A stretch of 36,764 nt of DNA from positions 1 through 36,764 of the forward strand of contig JALWZT010000311.1 in NCBI GenBank assembly GCA_027002405.1. The letters are read 5' to 3'. Origin of the DNA: Anaerolineae bacterium. Lineage in GTDB: Bacteria > Chloroflexota > Anaerolineae > J102. Below, in pieces: positions 2,497 to 29,869 of the stretch. Below the pieces are notes generated by a model. The model had not been told where the DNA came from and did no database searches. It saw nothing but the letters and a program-made list of their open reading frames with translations. Within the stretch, counting starts at the first letter, position 1. Every line of letters begins with the position of its first letter. A program made the translations under genes and the position numbers.

Positions 2497-2555
2497 CAGG
2501 TGTGCAGGTAGCAAGTGCGCCGACCTGCCACTTGCGACGTGCAAACTTGCATCCA

Positions 2556-2709
2556 ACCGGTATGAAGTTCTCTCTCCCACCAAACGCCCCGGACTGCGCT
2601 GGCTCATGGCCTTCTGCGTCCTGCGGGCGTTTTTTGTGGAGCCTGAAGTGGGTATGGGCAGGCGAAGTGCCGTCAACTGGCGGCAGGTGCTGGCAAGTGA
2701 CGGCAATGG
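2556..2709. repeat. Structured repeat copy A (inverted relative to 36397-36546)
   Basis: ACCGGTATGAAG...AAACGCCCCGGAC...TGCGCTGGCTCATGGCCTTCTGCGTCCTGCGGGCGTTTTTTGTGGAG...TGCCGTCAACTGGCGGCAGGTGCTGGCAAGTGACGGCAATGG matches the reverse complement of 36397-36546. Confidence 0.9.
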
Positions 2710-2785
2710 TTTTTGCTGCCCTACGGGTTTTTGGTGTATGCTCGTGATATTATCATCTTTCGTTTTTTATCTGGTGAGGTTATTG

Positions 2786-7900: not shown

Positions 7901-8023
7901 CGCGACAATGTGCTCTGGCGCAACCGCAAGATGGCGACCCGCGAGCCATTGACGCACGAAGACACCTTTACGGTGGGTTCATACACCTTTCAATTTCTCA
8001 GTGATGAAGGAGGACAATCATGA
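4997..8023 (+). CDS. VWA-domain protein with signal peptide, Ig-like repeats, one C-terminal TM and cytoplasmic FHA-like domain
   Basis: Signal peptide; MIDAS DDSGSM; duplicated IPLTVTSTSVRPEKL / VPITITSTSIRPEPL segments; TM VPIFGGMAFVAVLLITGVVLTRRW; tail ISVGSSTDDDITLNLPGLNPNHFVIH resembles FHA. Confidence 0.85.
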   Translation: MTHINKQITIGTMILLISLFIAAPMASQAQNAPSEHAMVIILLDDSGSMADNDPHDVRYTAARLFVSLLDEGDAVGVIRFSTHSQPLTDGVVPITTQDAKHTINQRLQPRQAEGWTNMLDAFRDAREMIEAAERDGYQVQILLLTDGQPEIENTPPGFEQDILDVVEEMDAPVMAIALTQDAETPFLNQVAMQSQGMVIPAHDASDLLDAYLEVLGQIKDRIILQAEVDESSGQAAVVISPDLSPYVEKASFIVSSPHIQSFQLLRPDGEPMAADASSIIYAETQEPQFRLLTLQAPMGGAWRYQVEGAQPVRVRLILWSHLRIEVLTPQRYHEAGAPMPIQVRLIQEQADGSTTTIVGQARFSALITRPDGSQESLDQFYDDGTHGDATAGDGVYTRQYMNTEQPGSYHIAIHGSKGAAPVEQSVQVEVVPFPRMVIQEPAHNHYDIRGERIPLAVTLKDGNPPELDRGDFTAIITDPTGESQTILLKKEGGVYSGSFLPGRDGSYQITFLPRNATYKGIPYDHQQSKTIRVRIIPAIRVASAPIDLGMLDASEAARGIDIPLTVTSTSVRPEKLSLAITGLVGIRMEGPDEFTIRPGQENQIHLKLAADADAPLGPQSGQILLDADEAVDLVGDRIPLKIAIRATLDVSPPEQGLGLMDITRMPDLVNVPITITSTSIRPEPLTIQLEALPQFTLVNELPLTLLPDGETQITLQLKPNTDLTPGEIAGHLRFGGRDGPEIRPQQIDLHGRLYAPVIHLKPESDQLTPEGGCFPTTVTLHLNIASDSAYTETIHMATPDEGLHITPATLTVPPGESQAVIELMREGGFPSGEHTYRIFFSGRDGLTFDPSDRETATVQVTSLWGRCPVPIFGGMAFVAVLLITGVVLTRRWLAAMKPPVVRGTLRYWPSGGAGRFNEIDLTDYDKTEISVGSSTDDDITLNLPGLNPNHFVIHAPESREDAHPILEPRDNVLWRNRKMATREPLTHEDTFTVGSYTFQFLSDEGGQS

Positions 8024-10965: not shown

Positions 10966-11038
10966 CCCACCCTTCACCCACACGCAGGATGGGGCGGCGC
11001 CCCCGCCCCATCCATCCCCATCTGACCGGAGTATTGCC

Positions 11039-13339
11039 ATGACTGGCTCCTCACTGTTTCAATCCAAACCAACTCCAACCATTCTGCTGGCGCTGGATAC
11101 ATTCGCCATCGAGGTGATGGGGGATGTGCAACGGGTCTTCGTCCAGGAAGACGCTGCGCGACAAACCGTCACTCTGGGGCTGGCGCTTGATGGCTCCGGG
11201 AATTTGAGCCTGCTGACGCCCGCGTCCACAAACAGCGTGCTGGACAAATTGATCTCGGAGCAGGCACCCTTGCCCGTCCTCCTTGAGGAGGCAATGAGAT
11301 TGCTGCGCACCGATGAGGTCCTGGCGCGAGCCGGTCTGGCGGAATTGAGGAATCCTCCCCTGGACGTTTTCATCCTGGGTGATTTGCGCCATCGCGAGAC
11401 GGCGCAGGCTCTCTTCCCGGCGCTTGCGCTGGTGGATCAGTTGCTGGCGTCCGATCCCTATGGTGAGGCGCATTTGTTCCTGAACATTGCCCGGTTTGCC
11501 AGCGATGATGAACATGATGATGTCGATGCTGACGGGTTGATATCCCTGTTGAAAGGGTTGGGCGCATTGCGATCAGGCCATATTGCGGCTGCCAGGGAGT
11601 CATTGAAATCCTGGGTGAACAATGATGTCTTACGCCCCATCGATGCCCACATCTATCTGTTCGACCGGGCCAAGGAGGGGCGACGCGAAGTCCGGGATAT
11701 AGATGAGATTCGCACCATCATGGGCAATGTCCTGATGGCGTTCATGTCCGCGGGCCTCGCCCAGGAGATGGCGTCCCGCGTGTCCAGAACCACGGTCATC
11801 GAGCTGGAAGCGCCCTTTCACAGTGCAGGTGCGGCGATGATTTTCTTCGACCCGCAGCCTGTCATCGAGCAGTGCGCCGCCCGGTTGAGCCGGGAGTTCA
11901 TCACTGAGGAGCTGGTGGCCGAAGCCCAACCTCCAGGACGGGTCTTCAACGACTGGCTGACCGGCTTGAAAGAGGAAACGGGCGCTGTCCAGGAATGGAT
12001 GATCGCCGCTCTGGAGGATACGCCGCTGGAGCTTCATGCCCATGACCGCCGGATGTGGCTGGGCCTGCATTTCTCCGGTTTCGACTTCGATCATGTCTCA
12101 CCTCAGCGCTGGGCGAAGGTCATCGCCACCCATGACGCCATGTTCGCCCAAAGTCAGGCTCCCAAAATCCAGGATACATTGAACGAAAACATCGAGAAGC
12201 TACGTCAACGCACCAGGCAACGACTTGATGCGGCTGTGGATGAACTGCCGCAGCGTCCAGACCTCTATCCCGGTGGGCTGAACGCCTCCCGTCAGCTCCT
12301 GCGCAGGCTGGACGACTGGCTGGAGGAGCGCCTGACAGAAGTCGAATCGATTGACGCCGGGGCATCCCCGGATTTCGAAAGACAACTGGCGCATCTGGCG
12401 AAAGAAGCGCAGGGCATCCCTGACCTCCGTCCCTTCGCCCTCAGGTTGTTCTTACTCGGCGTGATGGTCTTCTATCTGGTGGAGATGTCCGTTTCGACAC
12501 TGGGAGATGTTGTCGCCCTGAGCGCCGTAGCGGGCTGGCTTGCGGGCGGGGCTGCCGCCCTGATAGCGATGCTCGCCAGCGTGTTCTGGTTGCACCGCAA
12601 GGAGCGGCATCTGGTGGCCCTGCGTGAGGCATGCATTCGCACCTCCGAAGCCCGACATGCCCGCGACCTGGAAACCCATTTGCGGAGGAAGCTGGCTGAT
12701 CTTGTGCGCGATTTGCGCAACAAGGTCCTTGAAAGCCAGCAACGCCTCGGTGATCTGGAGGCGTCGTTGCGGGAGTTGACCGCTGAAGCGGCGTCACTCC
12801 CTTCACAGCCCACTTCTCCCTTCCGGCTACGGGCGGCGGATGAAGCGGTTACTGACTGGGCATACCAGCGCTGGCGGTCATCCACTGCGGAGATGCGCCG
12901 TCCTCTGCTGGCGGAGCAGCGCTTGCTGAGGGGATGGCAATCACTGGAAGCATCCGCTCTTCGGGATCGTCTGCTGACATTCAGTCGTCAACAGTTCGCC
13001 GCCATCCGCTCTCTGACCCTGACCGAGGCGCTGCGTCACCGTCAGGATGAAGGGACCAAAGCGATTTCCGTTCTGAAGCGCAGCTCCACGCCGTTATTGC
13101 GCCCCAACTTCGACAGCCTCGGCGGCGGCCGATATGCGCAACTCAACCAGATCATCATCCTGCCCCCAGGAGGAACGCCGATTCGTGGTCAGATTCTCGA
13201 CGAGAACTGGGAAGTGGTTGAGGGCATTCATCCTCGCCTTCTCATTGCCTTACGGGTGCGACATCTGCTGCCCCTGGCGTCACTGGAGGCTGTCCAACAC
13301 CGGGCTATTCCGACCGCCATCCGGGAGGAATCCATATAG
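11039..13339 (+). CDS. Membrane-anchored coiled-coil protein associated with the tubulin-like gene
   Basis: Intact 766-aa ORF; TM pair LRLFLLGVMVFYLVEMSVSTLGDVVALSAVAGWLAGGAAALIAMLASVFWL followed by charged helical region. Confidence 0.75.
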   Translation: MTGSSLFQSKPTPTILLALDTFAIEVMGDVQRVFVQEDAARQTVTLGLALDGSGNLSLLTPASTNSVLDKLISEQAPLPVLLEEAMRLLRTDEVLARAGLAELRNPPLDVFILGDLRHRETAQALFPALALVDQLLASDPYGEAHLFLNIARFASDDEHDDVDADGLISLLKGLGALRSGHIAAARESLKSWVNNDVLRPIDAHIYLFDRAKEGRREVRDIDEIRTIMGNVLMAFMSAGLAQEMASRVSRTTVIELEAPFHSAGAAMIFFDPQPVIEQCAARLSREFITEELVAEAQPPGRVFNDWLTGLKEETGAVQEWMIAALEDTPLELHAHDRRMWLGLHFSGFDFDHVSPQRWAKVIATHDAMFAQSQAPKIQDTLNENIEKLRQRTRQRLDAAVDELPQRPDLYPGGLNASRQLLRRLDDWLEERLTEVESIDAGASPDFERQLAHLAKEAQGIPDLRPFALRLFLLGVMVFYLVEMSVSTLGDVVALSAVAGWLAGGAAALIAMLASVFWLHRKERHLVALREACIRTSEARHARDLETHLRRKLADLVRDLRNKVLESQQRLGDLEASLRELTAEAASLPSQPTSPFRLRAADEAVTDWAYQRWRSSTAEMRRPLLAEQRLLRGWQSLEASALRDRLLTFSRQQFAAIRSLTLTEALRHRQDEGTKAISVLKRSSTPLLRPNFDSLGGGRYAQLNQIIILPPGGTPIRGQILDENWEVVEGIHPRLLIALRVRHLLPLASLEAVQHRAIPTAIREESI

Positions 13340-13405
13340 CGCCACCCACATTCTACATCCCCCATGATCCACATTTTCTCACCCATTCACAAAAGGAGTG
13401 TCACC

Positions 13406-13822
13406 ATGAAAACCCGAGGCATTGCCCTGTTGTTTCTTCTGCTGATCCTGGCCGCCGTGCTGTCGGGCTGCGGAAAGCTTCTGCCCCCTGGCCCGGAGAA
13501 GGTGGCGGCGGACTGGTACGAGGCGCTGGGCGCGTTTGATACCGCCCGCATGTACCAGCTCACCCATCCTGAACAGCGGGAGACGTTGCAGCGAACTCTG
13601 GACAATCCCATCACCAGTTTGCTCAACCTGACGGGGCTGGCTGGCGCCACCTACTTCGACATGCAGTATGAGGTGGTGGCGAAAGATGGTGATATGGCCA
13701 TGGTGCATGTCACCGGCAAGGCCAGCACCAAACTCGGCTCCATCACCGATGTGGACGAAACCATCGAGCTGCGCCGTTATGACGGCCACTGGTACGTCTG
13801 GGATATCGGTAGCGGCTGGTAG
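13406..13822 (+). CDS. Lipoprotein
   Basis: Signal peptide with lipobox AAVLSGCGK; AAAAGGAG RBS. Confidence 0.8.
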   Translation: MKTRGIALLFLLLILAAVLSGCGKLLPPGPEKVAADWYEALGAFDTARMYQLTHPEQRETLQRTLDNPITSLLNLTGLAGATYFDMQYEVVAKDGDMAMVHVTGKASTKLGSITDVDETIELRRYDGHWYVWDIGSGW

Positions 13823-14479: not shown

Positions 14480-15215
14480 CAGTCCTCTTTTATCATATAA
14501 GGTCAACCACCGGCGAGAAGCGCCTAAGGAGATCGAGTTTACTCGGTCAGTGTCGCGGCAAAAGGGGAAGTTATTTATGGACGATCGCTAAAGGCGAACG
14601 CGTCCTTCGCAGCGAGGCCATCATCCATAACACCAAAGCTTTACCCATCAAACGGTCTCCGCCTTATTTCCAAGACATCGTGACCGAACTGGAGCAAATC
14701 CTGGTGCGTTTTCTGGACGCCTTACATTGTGTGGTGTGGACGTCACCTTTCTGCCTGATGGCATCCTGCATCAACTGGAACAACTTGGCTTCATTGGCGA
14801 CAGAAAAATTTCTGGCATCCATCTTTCCGAGCCGCGATTGCGAGCTGTGATGGAGACTGTTATCCGCTTGGCGGCAACGCCTGGAGGGATTGGATTCGCA
14901 CCTCCGTAGTCACTGAAAGGGTGAGATCCTTGTTGGGGTGGAAGGATTAGGCGTACCATTCCTGGCAAGCCTCCTATGATCTGCGCAAATTGCGGGCCAA
15001 GGGCTGGGTTCAAAAAATTGGCAACTCACATAAGTACGAAGTCCTGCCAGAGGACCTGAAAGTGATGATCGCTTTACTCGTTCTGCGCGAGAAAGTTATC
15101 AAGTCGGGTTTAAGTGGCGCGGGCAAACTCATGCCAGGACCGGAACCAAAATTCATCAGCCAACTCGATCGGCATATTCTGGATGGCTTTCGAGTATCGA
15201 ATTGCATTGTCAACA
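14480..15215 (+). pseudogene. Decayed, frameshifted winged-helix-type ORF (mobile-element-associated family)
   Basis: Coherent fragments in different frames: KGERVLRSEAIIHNTK..., CGVDVTFLPDGILHQLEQLG...LSEPRLRAVMETVIRL, then YDLRKLRAKGWVQKIGNSHKYEVLPEDLKVMIALLVLREKVIKS. Confidence 0.55.
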
Positions 15216-15752
15216 CCCAAAAGAGAGACCACCCTTATTTGACATGTATTATTATTTTTCATACAATGTTATTAGTCTCATTCCGAAAAAGATATTGCAG
15301 TTACCCTCCGTACGAATCAAGTATCGTTGTATCAATACATCTCTCATGGGTAAAAAATCAAAGATGCGCACATTTGGAACATGAGTCGAATTGCAGTAGA
15401 TCACGATTGCGTCTGCAAACGCACCCGAATGAATTCAGATCTGAGGGCGTTCCGCTGCATGTCTCCCTTCGGGAACATTTTTCGCCCGTTTGGCCGCCTA
15501 GTCCTGATTTTCATCGACGGGCCAGCAGGAATCGTGAATTACTGAAATTGAATTTTGGTGCAATATTTAGTAGCCAGGAAATCACACTACCTTACGAGAG
15601 TATTATCGACATACAGGTTGACCATATTTAAAAGTGCAAACATAGTAAAATCACATAGCATACTGTATGTCTTTATGTTTTGCCAAAAGTCTATTAGAGA
15701 TTGACTGAACAATTTTTCTATCACCCCTTATTATTCTCCGTAATTAAATACA

Positions 15753-16709
15753 ATGATTGATGAACTAAATGCAGACATATATGGGGGCAAAGCTGCCAGT
15801 CTTGTATGGTTGAAAGCCAATGGATTCAATCCCCCAAACTTTATTATTTTGCCTTATCGTGAATTAAACCGAAATCTGGATATGAGACATATCGCTCAAT
15901 TGATAGCGCGCCTTGAAAGCGCACTGGTGTCAAATAACGATAGTTCCGATTTTTTTGATACGAGATCGATGATTATCAATTTCATTGCAGAGAAATTACG
16001 CGACGAAATCAGGAATACTCCTTTGGATATTGAAATTATCAATAAAATTTCTCACGCTTGGAAAAGTGGCTTTTTCGGAACAACTGTCGCAGTTCGTTCT
16101 TCGGCAAAGACAGAAGATAGCCTAAGAGGTTCTTCTGCGGGGCAATACGAGACAGCATTGGGCATATCTTCTCTTAGTGACTTGTTAGGTGCAGTGCGTG
16201 AGATTCAATCATCGTACTTCACAATCCGTGCAATTCGTTATCGTTCTGCTCATGGGCTCACGCACGCACTCGAAATGTCCGTAGTTATTCAAGAAATGAT
16301 TCCCGCATTAATTTCTGGAATTGCTTTTTCTAAGAATCCTATCACAAGGGAGAGTTATGATTCTGTGGTTATCAACGCCAGCTGGGGACTAGGAGATTTG
16401 ATTGTGGGAGGAGAAGTTCAACCTGATGAATATGTAATAGATGTTCGGAAATCTCAGATACTTGCAAAACATAGGGGTACTAAGCAAAAAATTCATACAG
16501 TTGATACCCAGCATAATAAACGTGTAGAACAAAAAAGATCGAATACAGAATATTGCTTAAATGATGAAGAAGCAATTAATTTAGCAAAACTCATTAACGA
16601 TCTTGAAAAACGAATTGGTTATCCTGTTGATGTCGAATGGGTGGCTACGTCGGAAGACGATTCATTAAAATTTCGATTTCTCCAAGCTCGCCCTATTACT
16701 ACCCTGTGA
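15753..16709 (+). CDS. PEP synthase / rifampicin-phosphotransferase-like ATP-grasp (PPDK_N) domain protein
   Basis: VAVRSSAKTEDSLRGSSAGQYET, MIPALISGIAFSKNP, ASWGLGDLIVGGEVQPDEYVI, VEWV...FLQARPIT. Confidence 0.9.
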   Translation: MIDELNADIYGGKAASLVWLKANGFNPPNFIILPYRELNRNLDMRHIAQLIARLESALVSNNDSSDFFDTRSMIINFIAEKLRDEIRNTPLDIEIINKISHAWKSGFFGTTVAVRSSAKTEDSLRGSSAGQYETALGISSLSDLLGAVREIQSSYFTIRAIRYRSAHGLTHALEMSVVIQEMIPALISGIAFSKNPITRESYDSVVINASWGLGDLIVGGEVQPDEYVIDVRKSQILAKHRGTKQKIHTVDTQHNKRVEQKRSNTEYCLNDEEAINLAKLINDLEKRIGYPVDVEWVATSEDDSLKFRFLQARPITTL

Positions 16710-16773
16710 TTTTATAATGAATTGAGCATTTCCAATCTATGATTATATCATTTATTAAAAGAGAGGTTTTTCA

Positions 16774-18282
16774 ATGAATGCAAATTCCAATAATGAAATG
16801 GAGTATTTCCCTCTGGTATCACGACTTGAGTCGCCATTATGGGTTTCTTTAGTTTGTACAGGAGGGGAGAAGAAATATTATCAGAAGGCTTTGGGTTGGG
16901 ATTTTTCTATTGATAATTATAAATATGAAAACCGTACCCATCAAATTGGTAAGCCCGATGCAATTCGGTTAGTTGATGTTATTGATGAATTTGCGCGAGA
17001 AGGTGACTTTTATGGTTTCTATCTTGAAAGATGCGAAAGAGGAGTGCATGCACTATTGAATCGCGCTGAGAATGTATTTCAGCTTTCCTTATCTGAGTTT
17101 CCAGAAAAACGTGGCAGTTTATTCTCTCCACTTAATGATGTTTTTCAACTAATGCTGGAGAATATGCCATTTCTTGCCTCATTGGTTCTAATCCAAAATC
17201 GGTTAGAAACGGAACTGCGGCAGAATTTAGCTGCGGAATTTAATGTTGAGCCAGATAGCCGCAAGGTCAATGAGTTTTTGGGTGTTGTGATGGTGGCACC
17301 AAAGCAATCCAATTTTGTTAAGGAAAGTCGAAATGTACTTAGATTAGCTGCAGAAGTGCAAAAGATAACTGGGAGTAAGACGGTTACATTTGATCAGTTA
17401 CCTTTGTCGTTACAACAAGAAATTGATCAACATATTTTTGAATTCGGATGGTTAGGGACATTTACATTTTTTAATGATCCTTATTCTCGTGAAGATATCA
17501 TTACCCGCATTAATTTAAATCTAAAAAGAGACCCTTCACGTATTTTGAATGAGACAATTTCACGAGAGCAAACAGCCCTTTCGCTTGCTGATAGGGCGAT
17601 TGAAACTATAAGCGATTCGGAGCTTCGCAAATTGTTGCATTATGCACGTGAATATCTTTTTTGGCGGTTTGAACGAGTTGATGCCTTTTTCAAGGCAGAG
17701 GTGCTTACACGCGGTCTTCAGGAACAGATAGCCAGAGAGATGGGCATTGCTAGAAACGAAATCCCCTTGCTTGTTTATCAAGAGTTGTTGGACTGGTTTG
17801 ATGGAGAATCGAGTATTCCAGAAGAAAGTGAACGGCTTCTACGAAAGCAGCTTGGAATAAATTATTATGTCACGGATGGAAAGCATCGTTTCGAATTAGG
17901 ACGGCCGATTGATTTCACAATAGATCCAGATTTACGGCAATCAGTGTTTGATGTAGGACTAGAGGGTACAACGGCATGCCAAGGGCATGTAAAAGGAACA
18001 GTGAAAATTGTACGAAGTGTCGCTGACATACATAAAGTTCATGAAGGTGATATTCTGGTCACTTCAATGACAACGCCGGATCTAATGCTTGCAATTGAAA
18101 AGGCTGCTGCTATCATTACTGATGAAGGTGGTATCCTTTGTCATGCTGCAATTATTAGTAGAGAATTAAATATTCCTTGTGTAATTGGAACGAATAAGGC
18201 AACTAAGAGTCTCCAGGATGGCGATCTGATCGAGTTGAATGCAGATTCAGACATCGGCCTTGTGACTTTATTACAACACTAG
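16774..18282 (+). CDS. PEP-utilising enzyme with novel N-terminal region and C-terminal swivelling phospho-His domain
   Basis: VHEGDILVTSMTTPDLMLAIEKAAAIITDEGGILCHAAIISRELNIPCVIG = PEP-utilizers mobile domain. Confidence 0.9.
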   Translation: MNANSNNEMEYFPLVSRLESPLWVSLVCTGGEKKYYQKALGWDFSIDNYKYENRTHQIGKPDAIRLVDVIDEFAREGDFYGFYLERCERGVHALLNRAENVFQLSLSEFPEKRGSLFSPLNDVFQLMLENMPFLASLVLIQNRLETELRQNLAAEFNVEPDSRKVNEFLGVVMVAPKQSNFVKESRNVLRLAAEVQKITGSKTVTFDQLPLSLQQEIDQHIFEFGWLGTFTFFNDPYSREDIITRINLNLKRDPSRILNETISREQTALSLADRAIETISDSELRKLLHYAREYLFWRFERVDAFFKAEVLTRGLQEQIAREMGIARNEIPLLVYQELLDWFDGESSIPEESERLLRKQLGINYYVTDGKHRFELGRPIDFTIDPDLRQSVFDVGLEGTTACQGHVKGTVKIVRSVADIHKVHEGDILVTSMTTPDLMLAIEKAAAIITDEGGILCHAAIISRELNIPCVIGTNKATKSLQDGDLIELNADSDIGLVTLLQH

Positions 18283-18300
18283 AGCTTGCGTCTGTTACCA

Positions 18301-18451
18301 GAAAAATTTGGTTCTCTGAGCTTTTGTGGGGTGTCCCCCAGACGCTCTGAGCTTTGTGGGGGGGATAGCCGCAAAAGGCAATGCTCTCCAGGCGAAAATG
18401 GCCAGAATGTGGGGACTTACCCAATAATTCCTCAGAGAGCCAAAAATTTTT
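18301..18451. repeat. MITE-like element with ~20 bp imperfect terminal inverted repeats
   Basis: GAAAAATTTGGTTCTCTGAG (18301-18320) vs CTCAGAGAGCCAAAAATTTTT (18431-18451); internal direct repeat CTCTGAGCTTT(T)GTGGGG. Confidence 0.6.
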
Positions 18452-18505
18452 GACAAATGAATCAAATCTTTGGGAGTGATTCGGTAATGACCATTTTATG
18501 GGCCC

Positions 18506-18907
18506 CTACAACGGGGCCCACGCCCATGAGATTGTGGCCCTTCCTCGCCACCTGCAAAGCTTGGAACAGAGGCTTCTGTACACGGTGTCCAGTTGCAACT
18601 CGAGATGCTCCATTTTCAGTTTGTCCAGCAAGTAGCTTAGTTCGGCCAAGCTCAGAAATCGTTCGTCGAACACCGATTTGCCCCGATATGAGGCCTTAAG
18701 CACAGAGCTTTTCGGATTATCGACCAGCACTTCCTCCGGCCCACCACCGCTGAAGTATTTCTGCTGGTAGGGAACCCTTACACATAAGGGTTCAAAGGGG
18801 GACGTGTAGCACCTCCTTGTCGTGGCGGTGGTCGAAAGCAACCGCCACGGAACTGAGGAGCCCCGCAAGCGAAGCGTGGTGGGGCTGCGAGTTACCTGTC
18901 GGTGCAC
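18506..18907 (-). pseudogene. IS21-family transposase remnant (IstA/IstB-junction-like fragment)
   Basis: GGGPEEVLVDNPKSSVL resembles IstA; FLSLAELSYLLDKLKMEHLELQLD resembles an IstB-like start, joined by deletion. Confidence 0.5.
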
Positions 18908-19205
18908 TAGTACTCAGTTAATCGTAGAATGATGGATGGCCTAAATATCCTTCGGTGCATAATCCCAGAACTTCTCTAGACTTACGACCGAAATCTCTCC
19001 TAAAAACCAGTTACAGTTGACGGCATACTAGGTCATAGGAAGAATATCGTAGTGTCTTGCTGTCAATGAAGATAAGAAGGCATGAAGTATGGTAAACACG
19101 GGTTTCTTTGTGCTTTCGTCCCTTTAAGCCTTCACGACAAGACATTTTCTCTGCAATTTTCTAAGGCACAATCTGATTGTAATTACTCTGACACGTGAGG
19201 TAATA

Positions 19206-21617
19206 ATGAGAATACTAATAATCGAAGACGAAAAAAATAGCGCCAGACTATTGGCACAAGAAATCGAAAAAGTACTGCCACGAGGCTCATACAGCATTGA
19301 AACAGCAGCTAGCTTTGATGCGGCGTGGAATAAAATTCGGAACAAAAAGTTTGACGTTATTTTCACCGATTTACTTCTACTCCCTAGAAACTGTAAGATT
19401 CATAACTCAATGTTGGTTTGCGGCCATAACGCTAAGCGATTTTCTTCTGCGGATTGGAATAAATATGTTGTTGAAAGAGGTGGGGTAGAGTTAATTAGAC
19501 GAGCTCGTAATAGAATTGAGAGCTATAATAAAGATACCGCAATTGTAGTTATTAGTTGGTTTGATGATTTGGTAGGATTTAAACGGATTTTACGAATGAT
19601 CCGTTACGGCAGCGATAGGTCATTATCAGTGATTCCCAAAATTCGATCTACGGATTCGGTGGACCTTTCGAATACGATTAATGAATTTTTTAGGAGTTTA
19701 TTCAATGAAATTGGTAGAAATATTTATCCTGATTTAACTTCATTAGAACCTATTGCCGTGGAAGTAAGGGCACTCGTTAAAGATCTTAGATTAATGAGGA
19801 TACGTCGCATTAGGCAAAACATGGGACTTGATCCTTTAGATGTACAACCACTTATCGCGGGAATAGCTGGAGAATTAATTCTTGAAGTAGATCCAACAAA
19901 TGATCCATATTTGTGTTCCTTTCTTTATAGCAGTAAGGCTAATGAGCATTATCCCTATTCGGCACTTTATGAAGATTGGTCAATTCTTCGTGACAGAATT
20001 TTGATGAATCCTAACATAGACCTTGCTATCTCATTGCGAATAAAACGGGGACATGGAAGATATGAAAGTCAAAAAAAACTTATGAAGTATACAAGTACGC
20101 ATCGCGTAGGATTTGGTGTCTTAATAGGACCAGATCCGATTCCTGAAGATATGTCAATTACTACACGTCTTATTGAAAGATCTCTTCTAACTTATTTGGC
20201 GTATGCTTCTGAACCGATGCAGTCTGTCGATGAAGGGTGGGCAGTTTCACTTCGGGAGTTAGGTGCTGCTCTTAATAACATTGAGCAATTGAAATCGCAA
20301 CCTTATGTAAGAAACAATTTGCTAAAATGGCCAGATTCTCAAACTGGTATTCCTATTATTGAAAGATTAACTCAATTATCGAGACAGGGGGCAATTTTAG
20401 ACTATATTGTAAATATACGTAATGAGATTCAAGGTGCACTCAATGTAATGAAAACCTACGAGCAAATCAGTGCAAAATCTATTCTTGTTTCGTATAAAAA
20501 CAAGCGAACCGGTAGAGATACAGGATATTATTTTAATGGTGATTTTAGTATCGTTATGCCTAAGTCCGAATACTCTAAACTTTCCGCACATCGTGTTGCG
20601 CTATTTTCATTGCATCGTGATATTGTTTTTGAATGTCTTGATAATGCTAAAGTTGGCCCGTGGCAAATTCCCTTCTATTTAGAAGATGCAGGGATTGATA
20701 CAAAATTTATTCCTCCAGTGAATAATTTGGAGAAATTAGAAGAAGTCTTACTTGCAGAGGATTTAAGTGACCGCGATTTGGTTATTATTTCCCCAGTAGA
20801 TAATGAAATGCTGAATACATTCATGACTCAAAAATGGTTATCAATCTGGGAGGAATTAATAGGCAAAAAGAATCGCCTCGCTCTTCTTGTATTGAATAGT
20901 GATGTCAGAGCTCTATCAAAGGAAGAATTAAGTAGCCTGCAAAATCGTGGTGTAGATTGTATGTATCCAACATCGCGTCAAGATAATTTTAGTGTTACCA
21001 AACTGATTGATCACATAATATGTAGTAGTTACCGAACCAAATATCTCGCGAGACGTGTAGAGGAAAGACTTGACAGCGAGAGATTGGACACAGTTGCAAC
21101 TTTATTTCGAGATATTGTAAGCTTTATTGACGCATTGGGATATGACGGTCCAAACATCAGTGGGTCATTATCTATGCGGGCCAGTGGTGATCAATTCTAT
21201 GTAACATCGAGCCGTACAAACAAAAGGAATATCAAACCGGACAATATATCTTTAGTCAAAAATTACTCCATTACATATAATGTGCTCGATTATGCCGGTA
21301 ATAACAAGCCATCGAGTAGTTCTCCATGGCATTCATTAATATACCAAATATTCCCAAATGTAAAATTTATATTACACACCCATTGGAAAAGATTAACTCG
21401 TCACCCTAATCTTGAAAAATATTCCACAGATGTATACGTACCGTCTGGCAGTCAACGTTTGGCAGCAGATGTAACTCAGAAATTATTGGAAAATTATTCA
21501 AGGGAGATGAGGAAGGGCTTTGTTATATTAAAAGATCATGGTGAAGCATTTATTGCGGATTCAGCCCAAGAATTAAGGCGATTAGTAAAATTTATCTTGG
21601 AGGAGGTAGAAGAGTGA
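19206..21617 (+). CDS. Receiver-like domain fused to a class II aldolase/adducin-like domain
   Basis: N-term MRILIIEDEKNSARLL...FDVIFTDLLL...VVISW; C-term ISGSLSMRASGDQFYVTSS...KPSSSSPWHSLIYQIFPNVKFILHTHW...GFVILKDHGEAFIADSAQEL. Confidence 0.8.
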   Translation: MRILIIEDEKNSARLLAQEIEKVLPRGSYSIETAASFDAAWNKIRNKKFDVIFTDLLLLPRNCKIHNSMLVCGHNAKRFSSADWNKYVVERGGVELIRRARNRIESYNKDTAIVVISWFDDLVGFKRILRMIRYGSDRSLSVIPKIRSTDSVDLSNTINEFFRSLFNEIGRNIYPDLTSLEPIAVEVRALVKDLRLMRIRRIRQNMGLDPLDVQPLIAGIAGELILEVDPTNDPYLCSFLYSSKANEHYPYSALYEDWSILRDRILMNPNIDLAISLRIKRGHGRYESQKKLMKYTSTHRVGFGVLIGPDPIPEDMSITTRLIERSLLTYLAYASEPMQSVDEGWAVSLRELGAALNNIEQLKSQPYVRNNLLKWPDSQTGIPIIERLTQLSRQGAILDYIVNIRNEIQGALNVMKTYEQISAKSILVSYKNKRTGRDTGYYFNGDFSIVMPKSEYSKLSAHRVALFSLHRDIVFECLDNAKVGPWQIPFYLEDAGIDTKFIPPVNNLEKLEEVLLAEDLSDRDLVIISPVDNEMLNTFMTQKWLSIWEELIGKKNRLALLVLNSDVRALSKEELSSLQNRGVDCMYPTSRQDNFSVTKLIDHIICSSYRTKYLARRVEERLDSERLDTVATLFRDIVSFIDALGYDGPNISGSLSMRASGDQFYVTSSRTNKRNIKPDNISLVKNYSITYNVLDYAGNNKPSSSSPWHSLIYQIFPNVKFILHTHWKRLTRHPNLEKYSTDVYVPSGSQRLAADVTQKLLENYSREMRKGFVILKDHGEAFIADSAQELRRLVKFILEEVEE

Positions 21618-22327
21618 TGAATACAAACACAAGTCTAAATCCGAAGGAATTAAATGAAATTTTAGATTACTATGATGAAATAATAAAAAAAAGAGTAACG
21701 ACATTTACCAATAGAGTTAAGGAATACCTACTGTCTAATGAAGAGCTGGAAGCCCTAATGCCGCTGATAAAAGTTAGGATAAAGTCTCGCGAGTCGCTTA
21801 AGCGAAAAATAGAATCAAAATATGATCCTGATGATTTTCTCATCACAAAAGCATCATTAACGCAAACCATTGAGGATTTAGGAGGGATAAGAGTCATAGT
21901 TTACAAACGGCCAGATATTCAAAAAGTAATCAATATCGTCAAGGCGATGGATATCACCAGAAACGCTTCAAGTATTTATTCCATAAAAGATGAAAAACCT
22001 TATTATATTTTTAATAAAAGTTATGAATGGGGTGAAGATTTTGCTTACTCACTTCGTCAATTCGATAAAAGAAAGGTTTATCGTTCTACTCACTTTATTT
22101 TGATGGATCGGTTATCTGTTGACAGGATTCGGTGCGAATTGCAAATCAGAACAATATTTGATGAGGCTGTTTTTGAGAATTACCACAAATTAGTTTATAA
22201 GGGTAGCAACAATAAATATATTACAACCATTATGAACAATATCGCTGAAGAATGCCAACTGATCGACGATCTGATAACACAATGTTATTATTGGTATTCA
22301 GAAGATAAGAGTAACCTTTCCGATTAA
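21617..22327 (+). CDS. RelA/SpoT-like nucleotidyltransferase (small alarmone synthetase-like)
   Basis: VRIKSRESLKRKI, IEDLGGIRVIVY, YRSTHFIL, IRCELQIRTIFDEA; AGGAGG upstream; start overlaps previous stop (TGATG). Confidence 0.85.
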   Translation: MNTNTSLNPKELNEILDYYDEIIKKRVTTFTNRVKEYLLSNEELEALMPLIKVRIKSRESLKRKIESKYDPDDFLITKASLTQTIEDLGGIRVIVYKRPDIQKVINIVKAMDITRNASSIYSIKDEKPYYIFNKSYEWGEDFAYSLRQFDKRKVYRSTHFILMDRLSVDRIRCELQIRTIFDEAVFENYHKLVYKGSNNKYITTIMNNIAEECQLIDDLITQCYYWYSEDKSNLSD

Positions 22328-22424
22328 ATGTGAATATAAATTGTACAATTACGGTAGTTTTCCTTTTTGAGGTAATGGTAATGCTTGGTAAGGAAATGGT
22401 TATTAGGAGCTCTTTAACAGTACA

Positions 22425-22975
22425 TATGTGATCGGTCGACCCTGCGGCTATCGCGGGGTGGCGAGTTGACTGCGCTCGACGTAGGTGGTGTCGGCTACCC
22501 AAAACTTCGGAGTTTCGACCTTCGTCCAGAAAATCACGCAAAGTTTTTCTCCGCATACCTGGTAGCGTTGATTCTGTTGATTGACCATTTGTGCCTATAT
22601 CCAATCCTTGCCAAACTTCTTGCGTGACGATGGTCGATCATGGCCTTGATATGCGAACACACAGTCATGGATCGCTAAAAAAGTCTGGATGAGCAAAAAT
22701 ACTTCTTCAAAAGACGGAGTTTTAAATCATTTTGAGCAGCGAACTTGGCCTTTTTGATTGCGTCTTGATCTTTTTCAGGAAAGCCAGTCATATATCCAGA
22801 CCACTGCCTCATCGATTCCACCCATCCATCGAAAATGGTGGAGGAAAGCGAAGAAGAAAGGCCTCGTCGTTTGAGCATACAAAAGACCTCAATGCTAGCT
22901 TGTGTTTTTATTCTTTGGCGATCTCTCGGGCTACACGCAGACGGCTGTCCAAATCAATCATCATGGCACGTCCTG
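22425..22975 (-). pseudogene. IS1-like transposase remnant, multiply disrupted
   Basis: Reverse-strand fragments MMIDLDSRLRVAREIAKE, IFDGWVESM, VNQQNQRYQVCGEKLCVIFWTKVETPKFWVADTTYVERSQLATP. Confidence 0.5.
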
Positions 22976-22984
22976 TTAAGTCTT

Positions 22985-23090
22985 GAAAGAGGAAAAGCTT
23001 TACAATAAGAAAAGATGGATAGGGGATGCCGTCACCATGGGGCGGTCTATCCGTCGGCCAGAGTTGTCAGGATCTGTGCAAGTCGCGGGC
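22985..23090. repeat. Copy of a repeat also found at the right end of the window (36662-36764)
   Basis: AAGAGGAA..CTTTAC.ATAAGAA.AG.TGGAT...GCCGTCACC......TCTATCCGTCGGCCAGAG shared. Confidence 0.7.
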
Positions 23091-23229
23091 AAAAAATCGC
23101 CTTCGCTCCTTGAGTAGCTTCCTATGCCTCCACCTCTGGTAGGGAAACCTTTCATTGGGCTTCAAAGGGGGCGTGTAGCACCCCCTTGTCGTGGCGGTGG
23201 CTTTCGACCTATCAATTCGCGCACGTCAG

Positions 23230-24101
23230 TGTACCACCTTCTCGCGGTAAAAGTGTACCAGAAAAAGTGATGCACTATGGCGGGAAAAATAATGCTTTGG
23301 ATCTGGAAAAATCGCGAAGGGTCGGTAGGAATTTGGGGGGCGATGGGGGAGTGAGAGATGGGTAGCGTGGGTTGGAAAAGGACAAGGATCGAGTCGATAG
23401 GTGGCCTTCTGAAGAGGGAGTGGGGGTTGGCATGATGAGGAGAAGCAGGTAGAATAATGGGTGCCAGGATGGAGGATAGGGCAACGCTGACGAGCGATCC
23501 TTCGACAGGCTCAGGACAGGCCCGAGCGCCATCCAGGTGAACGTTGCCAGGAGCCGGGCGACTTGCTCACATGGGGCCGTCCGGCTTGCCAAGGGATGTT
23601 TGTTCCTGACAATGGCCACACTGCGGCATAGCCGCCGGGGTAGCCTCGTTCTTGTAACCGTTGCCAGATGGCCGCGATCTCCACGCCTTCGTCTCGCAGC
23701 TTCTCCACCACCTCCCGGTGGGGCTCCACCGAGGAGCGGTTCTGGGGCGGCGGCGAGGTGGCGAGCGCTTCCTTCGCCAGGCGTTGCAGCCCCTCGATGA
23801 GCGGCAGCTCGCCCGTGAGCGGGCCTTGGGCCTCGGCCCACTGCCGGTACGATTTCACGGTCTGGCGGTGGATCTTCAGATTGCGACTGATGCGGCGGTT
23901 CGAAGCGCCCTGCTGCACTTGCACCAAGACGGCTCGGACATCCATGAGAATTTTTTCCTGTTGGTCACGGAATTCTCCTGACGAGAGAGGGCTGAAAACT
24001 CTGTCAGAAGAATAACCTCAAGGCCAAGGCCCTTTGCGATTTGCCAGGTACCCTTTAGTCGCGACTCAGTGGTACACTTTGGGCGCGAACCCGGTGGTAC
24101 A
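23230..24101 (-). mobile_element. Internally deleted, non-autonomous IS21-like element
   Basis: TGTACCACC...AAGTGTACCA at left, TGGTACACTTT...GGTGGTACA at right; reverse-strand IstA N-terminus MDVRAVLVQVQQGASNRRISRNLKIHRQTVKSYRQWAE. Confidence 0.65.
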
Positions 24102-24178
24102 TTATCGCCCGCGAAGTGACACGACTGCCGCCACGGAACCGAGGAGCCCCGCAAGCGAAGCGTAGTTAGGCTGCGAGT

Positions 24179-24379
24179 TTACTGCTTTTGCCCCGACAGA
24201 GCACAGGCTCTGTATTCTACACCGGTGCCTCCCTCTATTGAAGTCTCTCCCTCCGAGGTAGGTTTTCTTCGACGTAGCGTACTTTTATCTGAGATGCGAC
24301 CGCTTCGTGTTGTACAAAAGGATGGCGTTAGCAACAGCTCCGCCACGGCGTTATCATAGGCATTGCCCACGGCCCCCAT
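24179..24379 (-). pseudogene. IS3-family OrfB transposase fragment
   Basis: MGAVGNAYDNAVAELL matches the G..YDNA.AES DDE-region signature; downstream frameshifted. Confidence 0.55.
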
Positions 24380-24550
24380 ACTTGGAGGATTTGGAAGGCC
24401 TCATTATAGATAGCCCTTCTAGGACATGTTTACGGCTCTCTTTTGTCAGTGAGTATAAACATATTAGAACTGGTCACTGTTAGGTTAGTTCAAGCGAAAA
24501 ACGACCTCGGCAGTTACCATCAAATTACTGTTGACTAAACAGGAGTTAAA

Positions 24551-25102
24551 ATGATGGATTTTGAATGGATAAGAATTATCTTCAAACTTTTCTTTAACAG
24601 AGGGATCAGATGTCATGTATTGGGATATCGTCCAGAAGTGATTTGTGTTGTTCAAGCCATTAACGCTGATGATAAAGATTTTTTAATTATTCGGCCGGCG
24701 TTAAACCCTTCAATTTGGATATTTCCCCAGGAAGGAATAGAAATTGACGAGTCTATTTCTCAGGCTGTAACACGATGTTTAAATGTTGAACTGGGAATTC
24801 ATGAATCGAATATGCAATTCCGTCGCAGCACTTGGCTGGGAAGAAAAAGACTACCCCCTGATCGACATGGAGAAAGAGACTTGCGGTACTCACTTACAAA
24901 ATTGTTTACAAGGAAAGATATGATTGGGAAGGCATATTTTGCTGCACAGGTTTATGTTCCGAGGGAGATCAAGATTACAATTAATAAAGCAGAAGTGGTG
25001 GATTACAGATGGGTGAATGAATCCGAATTAAGGAATTTACTTGCAATTTTACCTGAAGACAAAAGAAACTTTCGATTAAAAGCACTGGAATCATTTGTAT
25101 AG
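24551..25102 (+). CDS. NUDIX-fold protein with degenerate catalytic box
   Basis: IWIFPQEGIEIDESISQAVTRCLNVELGI aligns to the Nudix box; AGGAG upstream. Confidence 0.7.
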   Translation: MMDFEWIRIIFKLFFNRGIRCHVLGYRPEVICVVQAINADDKDFLIIRPALNPSIWIFPQEGIEIDESISQAVTRCLNVELGIHESNMQFRRSTWLGRKRLPPDRHGERDLRYSLTKLFTRKDMIGKAYFAAQVYVPREIKITINKAEVVDYRWVNESELRNLLAILPEDKRNFRLKALESFV

Positions 25103-25479
25103 GCGCTTAGCGCATCGAGATCGAGAAAAAGTTCTCGATCATTCAGACAGTGATGCCGACAGTACTCCCATTTCGTGAGGTTGAAACGAACATTAACATT
25201 TACACAGATTGACTGGCAAGAGTCAAGAAGGGAGCGCCTTCAAAACCTTCTCGAAAGAGGGCATCATTTGTATCCCCAAACCTGTTCCCTACAGGAGGAT
25301 ACAAATGGAAAGCGCTCCCACCGTCCACCATACCTTAGTAAGGATGGATATACTGAAAAAAGGTAGTATGAGGCCCGACAATCCCCTACATGTGTTACCA
25401 AATGACACCCAAGGCACTATATATAGTGGTATCCACCTTCGCAAATTGAGTTTTTTCAGTAGATCCAAGGATTTTGGGG

Positions 25480-25860: not shown

Positions 25861-26044
25861 TCCAATAGAGGAAAAAGCAATGAGCGAAAATTGATCTTCG
25901 TCACAATTTTATATGGAGGAGCACAGTATCAGAACAATATCACAGCGCGTCGCCACAGAAAGGCGGCGTCGTTCAGGGCAATTCCTTTGCAGCTATATCT
26001 TTTCTGACAATGTTCTACACCAGCCGCTGAAGTTTGAGAACGCT

Positions 26045-26308
26045 TCACTTCCGCTGGAAAATTCTGGCCAGCACAGCCTGTAAGAACAGCCCGACATGCA
26101 TCGCAGCGTTCTGCTGGCCTGCGTGCGGCGCGGGCTCAGGAGCCTGAGGCTGGCCTAGATGCCCTTGTTGCGTGGCCTCCTGTTGCGCCCGCAGAGCCTG
26201 ATTCATCGCCTGATTCATCGATTGATTTTGCGCGTGTTGCATGGCGTGCTGGTGCATCTGGTTGAGGTGCATGGCATGGTGATGGTGATAATGAAAATGG
26301 TGGTTCAT
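26045..26308 (-). CDS. His/Gln/Met/Asn-rich low-complexity protein
   Basis: MNHHFHYHHHHAMHLNQMHQHAMQHAQNQSMNQAMNQALRAQQ...; GGAGG 8 nt upstream on minus strand. Confidence 0.6.
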   Translation of the reverse strand: MNHHFHYHHHHAMHLNQMHQHAMQHAQNQSMNQAMNQALRAQQEATQQGHLGQPQAPEPAPHAGQQNAAMHVGLFLQAVLARIFQRK

Positions 26309-26343
26309 GGGAATACCTCCGTGAAAGGGTGAGGGATGGGTAA

Positions 26344-27879
26344 TCATTGGGCGAACATGGCCATTTCTGTCGGCCCGAGGAAGAGCACGGACAAAGGCTC
26401 ATCGAAGGCCTGGATCACGGCCCGCTCCAGGGGAATTTGCATTCGTTTACGCCAGATATCGGCGCTGGCGTCGTCGGGCATGAGCACGGTGAGCCGGTGG
26501 TCCTTCAGGCCCAGCACTCTGGCCCGCTCCAGCGCCCGCAGCGCGGGATTACCGAACAGTCGTATCCGCAACTCCTCGCGCAGCTTGTTCCAGACTGCGT
26601 GCGCCTCGGTGTGCTCGAACGCGGGCTGCGGCGCTTGTGGGACGGGCTGAATGACCGGGGCCGGGTCCAGAATTTCGTCCACGGGCTCATCGCCGTGGAT
26701 GATCAGCGTCGGGACATACTCATACGCCTTCTCGGCCTCTTCCTGCCGGCGCTGCTGGTTCCAGTCGCGGGAGGCGGGCAGGTCTTCCAGCACCTGGCTG
26801 AGATGGGGGCGTCCGGCATTGAGCTTGTTGCTGCCAATGGGATGCCCTTCCCGCCAGTAACGCTCAAAATCGCGCACGTCCTCGGGCGTGAAGCCGTAAT
26901 CCAGCAGCTTCTGCGCCGCGATCTGGAACTGCTCCCGTTTCTGCGGGCGCAGAAAGGCCAGATTCTTGCCGGTGACCTGGGCCAGGGCGTCGAGCATGGC
27001 GGTCAGCGCATCATCTTCCTCCGAAGTTGGAGTATCAAGTTCTGGTTCTTTTGCTTCCGGCTCGGGCTCCTGTTTCGGTGGAGCCTGTTTTTCCAGAGCA
27101 AGAAAACCAAAATGAGAATCCTTTTTTGTGATGTGAGGAGGAGAAGAGTTCGGGACAGTGACCCGCGTCGCGCGCGACGCTAGGTTCTCCTTCTCCTTCA
27201 TCTGTGTTTCCTTCTTTTGTGTTTCCTTATGTGTGTTTCCTTCGGGTGAACTGATTACACCACCCTGGTGTACTGAGTTCACCACCCCTGGTGTACTGAG
27301 TTCACCACCCTGGTCACCTGATTGCACTGGTAACCTCATTTCACCAGTGAAATCGGGCTCGGAGGGGTGTATTTCTTGCACTGGTGTCATGGTTACACCA
27401 GTCCGCGCCTCTGGTGACTGGTGCAACTGCTGCACTGGTGTACTCATTTCACCAGTCGAGGCGGCCAGGGGCAGGGTGATGGGCTCAGGCTCGGCCTCGG
27501 CGCCCTGTTCATCGGGTGGGGGCGATACGGCCAGGGCTGCAGGCTGGGGCGCCCGGTCGCGGATGTTGACGAGCTGATAGATATTGCTGCTGCGCCGACG
27601 GCCATTGCGGTGCTGGACCACCAACAGGCCCAGGTCTTGCAGCTTTTTGATGTAGATGATGGCGGTCTTGCGGCTGATGGCCAGGTCGTTGGCGATGGTG
27701 CTGTAGGAGGGGAAGGAAACGCCATTGGGATCGGCGCGGCGGGCCAGGTAGGCGTAGACGGCGATGCCTGTGGTTCCGAGGACGCGACCATAGCGGTCGA
27801 TGATGTCGTCATCCATCCAGAACCAGCCGGGACGGCGGGCGTCGGTGAGGATGTCGGTAGAGGGTTGTTGGGAGGTCAT
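26344..27879 (-). CDS. Winged-helix replication-initiator-like protein with DnaA-N-like C-terminal segment
   Basis: N-term GTTGIAVYAYLARRADPNGVSFPSYSTIANDLAISRKTAIIYIKKLQDLGLL (HTH_36-like); C-term AHAVWNKLREELRIRLF...LTVLMPDDASADIWRKRM. Confidence 0.75.
   Translation of the reverse strand: MTSQQPSTDILTDARRPGWFWMDDDIIDRYGRVLGTTGIAVYAYLARRADPNGVSFPSYSTIANDLAISRKTAIIYIKKLQDLGLLVVQHRNGRRRSSNIYQLVNIRDRAPQPAALAVSPPPDEQGAEAEPEPITLPLAASTGEMSTPVQQLHQSPEARTGVTMTPVQEIHPSEPDFTGEMRLPVQSGDQGGELSTPGVVNSVHQGGVISSPEGNTHKETQKKETQMKEKENLASRATRVTVPNSSPPHITKKDSHFGFLALEKQAPPKQEPEPEAKEPELDTPTSEEDDALTAMLDALAQVTGKNLAFLRPQKREQFQIAAQKLLDYGFTPEDVRDFERYWREGHPIGSNKLNAGRPHLSQVLEDLPASRDWNQQRRQEEAEKAYEYVPTLIIHGDEPVDEILDPAPVIQPVPQAPQPAFEHTEAHAVWNKLREELRIRLFGNPALRALERARVLGLKDHRLTVLMPDDASADIWRKRMQIPLERAVIQAFDEPLSVLFLGPTEMAMFAQ
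27203..27457. repeat. Iteron-like repeat cluster plus adjacent pyrimidine-rich repeats inside the initiator gene
   Basis: TTxACCACCC(C)TGGTGTACTGAG at 27255-27277, 27278-27300, 27301-27322 (degenerate); ACTGGTGT/ACACCAGT inverted pairs to 27457; TGTGTTTCCTT at 27203, 27218, 27232. Confidence 0.75.
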
Positions 27880-28028
27880 GATGCATCTCCTGTTGGGAAT
27901 GGCGAAAATGGGTGAATTTGACAGAGGTCAGGAGATGCGCTACCATATATTTGCTCTGGATCATGGGGTGACGCTGCACCGCAATCCAAAGCGGGAAAGG
28001 GCAAACTTTTTATGGTAGCGCACTCCAC

Positions 28029-28058
28029 GAAGACCGCTGGTGACAGGCAGCGGTCTTC
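28029..28058 (+). terminator. Perfect 10-bp stem hairpin followed by T-run
   Basis: GAAGACCGCT-GGTGACAGGC-AGCGGTCTTC then ACTTTTTATG. Confidence 0.6.
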
Positions 28059-28063
28059 ACTTT

Positions 28064-28441
28064 TTATGGGGCGGCATCGAGAAAGAAGCGACGAAGCTGG
28101 GGAGTGGGAGCGCCGAAGTTGAGCAGCAGCCCGATGGGCCAGTCTTCCCTGTCCATGAGGCGCTGAAACCGTTGCTCCTCCTGGCGGGTGATCCAGCGCT
28201 GCATGAGGATGCGGACGGGAATGCGCTCCGCCACCAGCAGGTGGATGAGGGGATGGTCCGCCAGGCGGACAGCCTGCACGCCTCGCTCGGGCAACATGTC
28301 CACGAAGGCGATGGCGAAATGCTCGGGGCGGCTGCTGAGTCGTTTGTGGCGGGTGAAGAAAAGATGGAAGTAGAGGGCCAGGGTTTTGTTGGCGGCCACG
28401 TGTAAGGCCTTATCTGTTTGGGGGGAAGTCGTGACAGTCAT
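28064..28441 (-). CDS. Hypothetical protein, possible GxxExxY-like C-terminus
   Basis: Intact ORF ending WPIGLLLNFGAPTPQLRRFF, reminiscent of GxxExxY proteins (IGLLINFG). Confidence 0.55.
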   Translation of the reverse strand: MTVTTSPQTDKALHVAANKTLALYFHLFFTRHKRLSSRPEHFAIAFVDMLPERGVQAVRLADHPLIHLLVAERIPVRILMQRWITRQEEQRFQRLMDREDWPIGLLLNFGAPTPQLRRFFLDAAP

Positions 28442-28449
28442 GAGATTCC

Positions 28450-28770
28450 TCAGAGCATGAGCTGATCGCCGAGCTGATCCAGCAGGGCGTCGGTTTCGTC
28501 TGTGTCATCAGGGGTTGAAGCCGGGGTGATGGTGACGCCGCTGGCCAGGGCCTGCTGTATGGCGCTTTCTACGACAGCCCGGATATCGGCCAACAGCATC
28601 TCAGCATCGAAGATAGGCTCGGGCTGCTGGCCCAACCCCCGGCGCAGGGCCTCCTTGATGGCCCGGCCCTTCTGCCCGAAGGACAGATCATCGAGGCTGG
28701 CCAGCCAGCGGATGAGGTCCGCATCCCGGTCGGGATGCAGGCGCAGAGTGAGTTTCCTGTGCTTTGTCAT
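28450..28770 (-). CDS. Small partner of the actin-like protein (StbB/ParR-like, putative RHH-type)
   Basis: MTKHRKLTLRLHPDRDADLIRWLASLDDLSFGQKGRAIKEALRRGL; position directly downstream of the ParM-like gene. Confidence 0.6.
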   Translation of the reverse strand: MTKHRKLTLRLHPDRDADLIRWLASLDDLSFGQKGRAIKEALRRGLGQQPEPIFDAEMLLADIRAVVESAIQQALASGVTITPASTPDDTDETDALLDQLGDQLML

Positions 28771-28804
28771 GAGAATTCGCGTGTGAAAGTGCTGGCATCT
28801 GGCG

Positions 28805-29869
28805 TCATGTGCTGGCGAGTGCTGGCGCTTTGAAGACCCGGCGGGCGTAGCGGGCCAGACCCGCGGCGTTGGCAGTGAGGGGATCGGGCAGGATGACGCC
28901 GTGGGGATAGGCGCGGAGCAAGGCTTTTCGAAGCGCCTGGCTGCCGCCGCCGGTGAAGAGCAGGTGGGCGAACTGGCGCCCGTCGCCCCAATGGCGTTCG
29001 AGGTAGGCCAGGGCCGAAGCCGCGGTGGCGTCCAGGGCTTGGGCCGCCAACGATCGGACGGAAACGGCCTGACCAGCGACATAAACGGTCGGCGATTTCG
29101 TCCGCAGCAAGGCGTCGACCTGGGGCAGGGCCAGCGTCACGCCATGCGCCCGCCGCACCAGGTCGGCCAGGGCCTCTGCGGCCCGGCGCATGCCCAGGGT
29201 CTCGCCGCCGGTGTAACGAGCGACCACCTGGCCGCCCTCCACCGCGAAGAGGTCCAGGGTGTTGAAGCCGATGTCGCACACGCCCACGGGCGCTTTCAGA
29301 TCATCAGGAGAGCGTCGCCAGCGGCCCGCGTCATCCAGACCCCAGGCGAAGAACGCGCCCACGGGTTGGGCCAACGCCCGCACCTGATGCACGGTCACCC
29401 GGCAATGAGCATCATCCATAACGAATTCATGCTCGCCCACCAGCCACCTGCGCAGGCCCTTGAGCGTAGCTGTGGCCAGCTCGCGGTCGGCCATGACCTC
29501 CACAGGCAGGCCGAGGATGAGACTGGCGTCGTGCTCACCCGGGCCGAGCTGTTGGGCTAACACGCCGTAGGTCAACGCCCGCAGTTCGGGACCCTCGGCC
29601 AGGCGCTGGAAATCAAGTCGCTGTAATGGGCGGGCGTAGCGGGCCACGTGAGGGCCGACCAGGTAGCGGGCGCCGTTCCATGAGACCGCGTGGGGTGTGT
29701 GCCCGTTGCGGCGCTTGCCCAAGCCGCCCAGGGAGAGCAGGCCGATGTCGGTGTCGCCGATGCCCACCACCGCGGGCAGGTAGGCGGTTTGCAGGCCCGA
29801 TCCGGTGACTTCCGCCAGCTTGAAGCCGCCGAAGCCGGGATCGAGGCCAAGAATGCGATGATGTGTCAT
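28805..29869 (-). CDS. ParM/StbA-family actin-like plasmid segregation ATPase
   Basis: ILGLDPGFGGFKLAEV (phosphate 1), VGVCDIGFNTLDLFAV (phosphate 2), LLFTGGGSQALRKALLRAYP (adenosine motif). Confidence 0.85.
   Translation of the reverse strand: MTHHRILGLDPGFGGFKLAEVTGSGLQTAYLPAVVGIGDTDIGLLSLGGLGKRRNGHTPHAVSWNGARYLVGPHVARYARPLQRLDFQRLAEGPELRALTYGVLAQQLGPGEHDASLILGLPVEVMADRELATATLKGLRRWLVGEHEFVMDDAHCRVTVHQVRALAQPVGAFFAWGLDDAGRWRRSPDDLKAPVGVCDIGFNTLDLFAVEGGQVVARYTGGETLGMRRAAEALADLVRRAHGVTLALPQVDALLRTKSPTVYVAGQAVSVRSLAAQALDATAASALAYLERHWGDGRQFAHLLFTGGGSQALRKALLRAYPHGVILPDPLTANAAGLARYARRVFKAPALAST

Follow-up and report, generated by a model that had tools for sequence, protein, structure and literature searches.

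The small-molecule dikinases form a widespread family whose substrates are mostly unknown; RPH, one of its members, is defined by a C-terminal His and by the lack of a PEP barrel (PMC4844700). RelA/SpoT proteins reduced to the synthetase include toxins and phage-sensing effectors (PMC9712102). We analyzed an island in which genes of these two kinds are found with a receiver-aldolase fusion and a NUDIX protein. The window, i.e. the whole stretch of DNA analyzed, is contig C311 (36,764 bp), part of a 4.3-Mb MAG. Its assignment to Chloroflexota is deduced from matches between its relatives and named loci, such as Anaerolineae and Dehalococcoidia records. The best reading of the island is that of a retained, horizontally acquired signalling or metabolic cargo, corresponding either to one system or to two or three units that IS activity brought side by side.

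A preliminary description had placed four adjacent same-strand genes and a NUDIX gene in AT-rich DNA between GC-rich flanks. The coordinates that it named coincide with gene starts and stops, and five intact open reading frames, all on the + strand, were found at positions 15753-16709 (P0002), 16774-18282 (P0003), 19206-21617 (P0001), 21614-22327 (P0004) and 24551-25102 (P0005). However, the first four are not all adjacent: about 920 bp of decayed transposon remnants (18283-19205) split the dikinase pair P0002/P0003 from the fusion/RelA pair P0001/P0004. A second debris block of about 2.2 kb (22330-24550) lies between P0004 and the NUDIX gene, as had been reported. The GC content of the five genes is 0.33-0.40, compared with about 60% outside, but the island is not uniformly AT-rich, the stretches 18.3-19.2 kb and 22.3-24.5 kb being GC-richer debris. 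GC3 was 0.29-0.32 in all five genes; of nine flanking ORFs measured, eight had values of 0.69-0.88 and the ninth, an nSTAND-like ORF, a value of 0.48. The codon-usage correlation was 0.43-0.85 within the five genes and -0.25 to 0.38 against the eight flanking ORFs other than the nSTAND-like one. The five genes look compositionally of one foreign origin; P0005 is only tentatively assigned to the block, by its composition and strand. As far as can be judged from their sequences the genes look functional, and their intact state amid decayed DNA suggests that they were retained, although they may also have arrived recently.

The first debris block contains a weak IS21-like transposase fragment on the - strand (18506-18907). 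A repeat that is uninterrupted at 18788-18898 recurs in the second block as two parts, 23157-23200 and 24128-24184, which are separated by an insert of about 0.93 kb (23201-24127) whose HTH ORF resembles a truncated IS transposase. Since debris of about 0.9 and 2.2 kb separates three gene groups, these may not have been contiguous originally. Two MITE-like repeats (14499-14592 and 15389-15549) recur many times in same-genus genomes, and the latter, located just upstream of the island, has 27-nt imperfect terminal inverted repeats. No empty site was found for the left border, all matches being short dispersed repeats. On the right side, a 123-bp element at 25345-25467, bounded by 17-nt inverted ends (94%), is possibly another MITE.

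The left neighbourhood of the island consists of an nSTAND-like gene and of a VWA/Tubulin_2/766-aa operon. The latter region (4997-13822) encodes in a row a VWA protein, a Tubulin_2 protein, a 766-aa protein without Pfam match and a small lipoprotein-like ORF. This row recalls tubulin/vWA conflict-type systems (PMC7159879), and neither MoxR nor a GTPase was seen there. The AAA/nSTAND-like protein (2351-4234) has a Trans_reg_C domain; the GC content of its gene is lower (0.475) and its codon usage is nearer to that of the island than to that of the flanks. To the right are a Rep-like HTH protein, a ParM-like actin, two large serine recombinases and a MazE/PIN pair. The Rep/ParM module (26044-29855) was recovered with 84-92% identity in same-genus genomes, beside quite different genes each time. 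The island is therefore adjacent to a mobile module, with a right border that accepts different neighbours. Neither Rfam families nor tRNAs were found in the window, and promoter and terminator scans gave results close to chance level.

The first gene pair had been read as a split PEP-phosphotransferase. P0002 (318 aa) matches PPDK_N (Pfam, 8e-61) and is an ATP-grasp domain by itself, while P0003 (502 aa), the mobile/phosphohistidine subunit, matches PEP-utilizers (3e-23) at residues 423-492 with nothing beyond. By motif position, P0002 keeps GGKAA (K13), VRSSA (R115), VEW (E295) and LQARP (Q311 and R313). The swivel domain of P0003 (395-500) carries the catalytic His in a CHAA motif at 456-459 (C456-H457), and no PEP barrel is present. 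The order of an ATP-grasp domain, another domain and a C-terminal His without PEP barrel corresponds to the RPH arrangement. We rejected a PEP synthase or PPDK identity, which needs a PEP/pyruvate barrel after a central His domain, and refined the assignment: P0002/P0003 is predicted to be a split RPH-type small-molecule dikinase, in which the residues for ATP-to-His phosphorylation are present. Against the rifampin phosphotransferase model NF041857 (NCBIfam; cut-off 999), the two subunits scored 156 and 59 bits. Residues 1-390 of P0003 have no detectable relative, including the rifampin-binding domain and split mobile subunits, and a search of 399 Chloroflexota genomes with this region returned none. 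In 151 genomes of this phylum, ATP-grasp-only and His-only frames were often seen side by side, and split dikinase pairs are common in Chloroflexota.

The receiver-aldolase fusion stood up to analysis, as both Response_reg (1.5e-5) and Aldolase_II (7e-14) match P0001 (803 aa). The receiver, spanning residues 1 to about 165, is the only family below its Pfam cut-off (25.6 vs 30.2 bits). Its assignment is nevertheless backed by the conservation, by motif position, of the phosphoacceptor D55, S117 and K145; the acid pair E7/D8 is kept as well. The central region of about 480 residues has no match in Pfam or NCBIfam, and residues 480-640 possibly form a Rossmann-like domain. In the aldolase domain (650-792), alignment with aldolases from other genomes indicated that the metal ligands H724, H726 and H778 are kept and that a Ser occupies the position of the catalytic Glu/Asp; P0001 thus has the His triad of catalytic class II aldolases without the acid that goes with it. 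Models produced by AlphaFold2 without an alignment were of no use (mean pLDDT 34.0 and 35.7).

The next gene begins with a GTG start inside the last codons of P0001, and through this 4-bp overlap P0004 is predicted to be translationally coupled to the fusion. P0004 (237 aa; RelA_SpoT, 1.7e-13) retains the full synthetase set (R55, K57, S61, K65, D88, R93, K152, Y156, H160, E175 and Q177) and has no hydrolase domain, so that the RelA/SpoT synthetase first recognized here can be refined to a putative small alarmone synthetase. It is distinct from the long RelA of the host. The best of its relatives, in an Ignavibacteriales MAG contig, sits after a ParA-like gene instead. Read by eye, an Anaerolineae protein (L046, G036:C79) combines a RelA/SpoT synthetase with TPR-like repeats and, at its C-terminus, a Rossmann-like domain.

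The NUDIX fold had been said to bind or hydrolyze nucleotide derivatives. P0005 (183 aa) is an RppH-like protein with a NUDIX match (5e-9). Aligned by eye with the canonical GX5EX7REUXEEXGU, its box reads E61-x5-E67-x7-R75-C76-L-N-V79-E80-L-G82-I, where RCLNVE replaces REUXEE and two of the three glutamates of that segment are lost, so that the box of a NUDIX hydrolase is broken. This loss makes hydrolysis unlikely and ligand binding more likely; P0005 is probably a binder and not a hydrolase.

We searched for relatives of these proteins and for a second example of the arrangement. For P0001, either whole or as its first 640 residues, the comparison covered up to 481 Chloroflexota genomes, 26 genomes with P0004-like genes and about 160 genomes from each of two other phyla (about 800 in total). 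Single block proteins were searched in PLSDB, INPHARED and IMG/VR, and P0001 and P0004 also in GTDB. No full-length relative of P0001 was found in these genomes or databases. Single-protein scans of GTDB and IMG/VR gave no matches; as they depend on exact matches of short peptides, diverged homologues would escape them, and this absence is not proof. Receiver-only matches in the two other phyla were set aside as likely ordinary response regulators, and a match in genome G771 (residues 115-204, with stops) as a chance match within another gene. The preliminary description had asked whether homologues of the core genes co-occur in unrelated genomes; wherever this could be tested, they did not. 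About 80 P0004-like loci, distant relatives obtained by a RelA motif scan, contained none of the other island genes and had no common neighbourhood. The same was true of the surroundings of about 20 split-dikinase loci, and 11 phage aldolase loci had no RelA, dikinase or NUDIX relatives. The five-gene arrangement was found only once in the genomes and databases searched. PADLOC returned weak single-domain matches only, with no model matching across components, and a literature search did not find this gene set described, in agreement with the initial statement that no named system is known to have this composition.

With no second example, the case for cohesion of one system consists of composition and one gene overlap. 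That the island is a single AT-rich, horizontally acquired cargo, kept intact beside the rep/par/recombinase module of an integrative element while the transposon sequence decayed, is a tentative reading, which we would sooner expect to fail than to hold. In such a system, the signal that changes P0001 would be either D55 phosphorylation or the binding of a sugar-phosphate or nucleotide to the degenerate aldolase domain. The changed fusion would control the pyrophosphokinase P0004, whose alarmone or other pyrophosphorylated product would alter the state of the cell. The split dikinase (ATP + X -> AMP + Pi + X-P) would supply or remove a phosphorylated small molecule, and P0005 would bind a nucleotide product instead of hydrolyzing it. 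P0001 and P0004 likely act together, control of the latter by the former being proposed from the gene overlap only; a shared pathway with the dikinase and with the NUDIX protein is a guess. Only a little short of an even chance is given to the alternative that the split dikinase, the fusion with RelA, and the NUDIX gene are two or three unrelated units from AT-rich donors assembled by IS/MITE activity. The debris between the three units and the MITE-like repeat just upstream are consistent with such an assembly, as are the split dikinase pairs that many Chloroflexota and a Thermomicrobium plasmid carry in the absence of the other genes, and the RelA-like relatives that likewise stand without them. 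However, GC3 and codon usage are common to all five genes beyond what random foreign assortment would be expected to give, and all five share one strand. The preliminary description had also considered housekeeping genes joined by IS activity; this was not borne out, as P0004 differs from the host RelA and P0002/P0003 is not a PEP synthase.

Two further readings assign a function to the cargo, and both appear unlikely. An anti-phage defence cassette, in which an alarmone-producing or tRNA-modifying RelA/SpoT effector would be combined with a sensor fusion, would resemble CapRel/toxSAS in outline; it is suggested by the toxins and phage-sensing effectors known among synthetase-only proteins and by a contig rich in mobile and conflict-type genes (serine recombinases, VWA/Tubulin_2, nSTAND-like, MazE/PIN). 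No recognizable antitoxin gene adjoins P0004, as would be expected for a toxSAS, the PADLOC matches argue against this reading, and homologues in defence islands were not found. A similarly improbable reading is that of a resistance or metabolic cargo, with an antibiotic or another small molecule as the substrate of the split dikinase and with the remaining genes as regulators or bystanders. The family architecture and the ATP-site residues would fit this role (PMC4844700), but the middle domain of P0003 shows no detectable similarity to the rifampin-binding domain, and the RPH R-E-x-x-K signature was not found there in that spacing, the only candidate being R292-E293. Finally, a His-to-Asp relay without histidine kinase, in which the CHAA His of P0003 would pass phosphate to Asp55 of P0001 and thereby switch on P0004, with the degenerate aldolase and NUDIX domains sensing ligands, is very improbable; it is conceivable because the contig ORFs scanned gave no match to a histidine kinase family, the receiver has kept its triad and the acceptor domain of P0003 is unrecognizable.

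Should the cargo form one system, phosphohistidine chemistry would be connected through it with receiver signalling and alarmone synthesis, a combination that is new as far as these searches show. Even otherwise, about 480 residues of the P0001 domain architecture are without any detected relative, and the dikinase substrate domain of P0003 is of unknown type. Two enzymes predicted to be complete, and two domains (aldolase and NUDIX) without their catalytic acids, provide concrete, testable predictions.

Compared with known systems, P0002/P0003 shares with RPH and other small-molecule dikinases an ATP-grasp domain and a phosphohistidine swivel, with the His domain C-terminal and no PEP/pyruvate barrel; unlike RPH, it consists of two polypeptides, with an unrecognizable middle domain in which the RIF signature was not found (PMC4844700). 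In the annotated split pair of the Thermomicrobium roseum plasmid (WP_012642933/WP_012643203), the ATP-grasp and mobile subunits are also encoded by neighbouring genes, but in the opposite order, and the mobile subunit has about 604 aa instead of 502, the first 390 residues of P0003 being unmatched. P0004 resembles the YwaC/YjbM-like small alarmone synthetases in having the synthetase domain alone with a complete catalytic set, whereas its identity to relatives is 25-32% at best, it has an insert before the Y-R-S-x-H motif and it is coupled to a receiver-aldolase gene. P0005 has the fold and box position of RppH-type NUDIX hydrolases but is predicted to be non-hydrolytic owing to its lost glutamates. 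The Lak-group jumbo phages and their relatives (L235-L237 and L240-L247) encode proteins of about 350-384 aa in which an N-terminal domain of unknown type precedes a class II aldolase domain. The latter aligns with that of P0001 (hhalign probability of 94.6-96.8%) and is likewise shortened after H-x-H; the phage proteins have an Asp where P0001 has the Ser, and no receiver. Their upstream domain aligns weakly with residues 508-540 or so of P0001 (E 0.19), which provides a lead towards a two-domain core that may be common to P0001 and the phage proteins.
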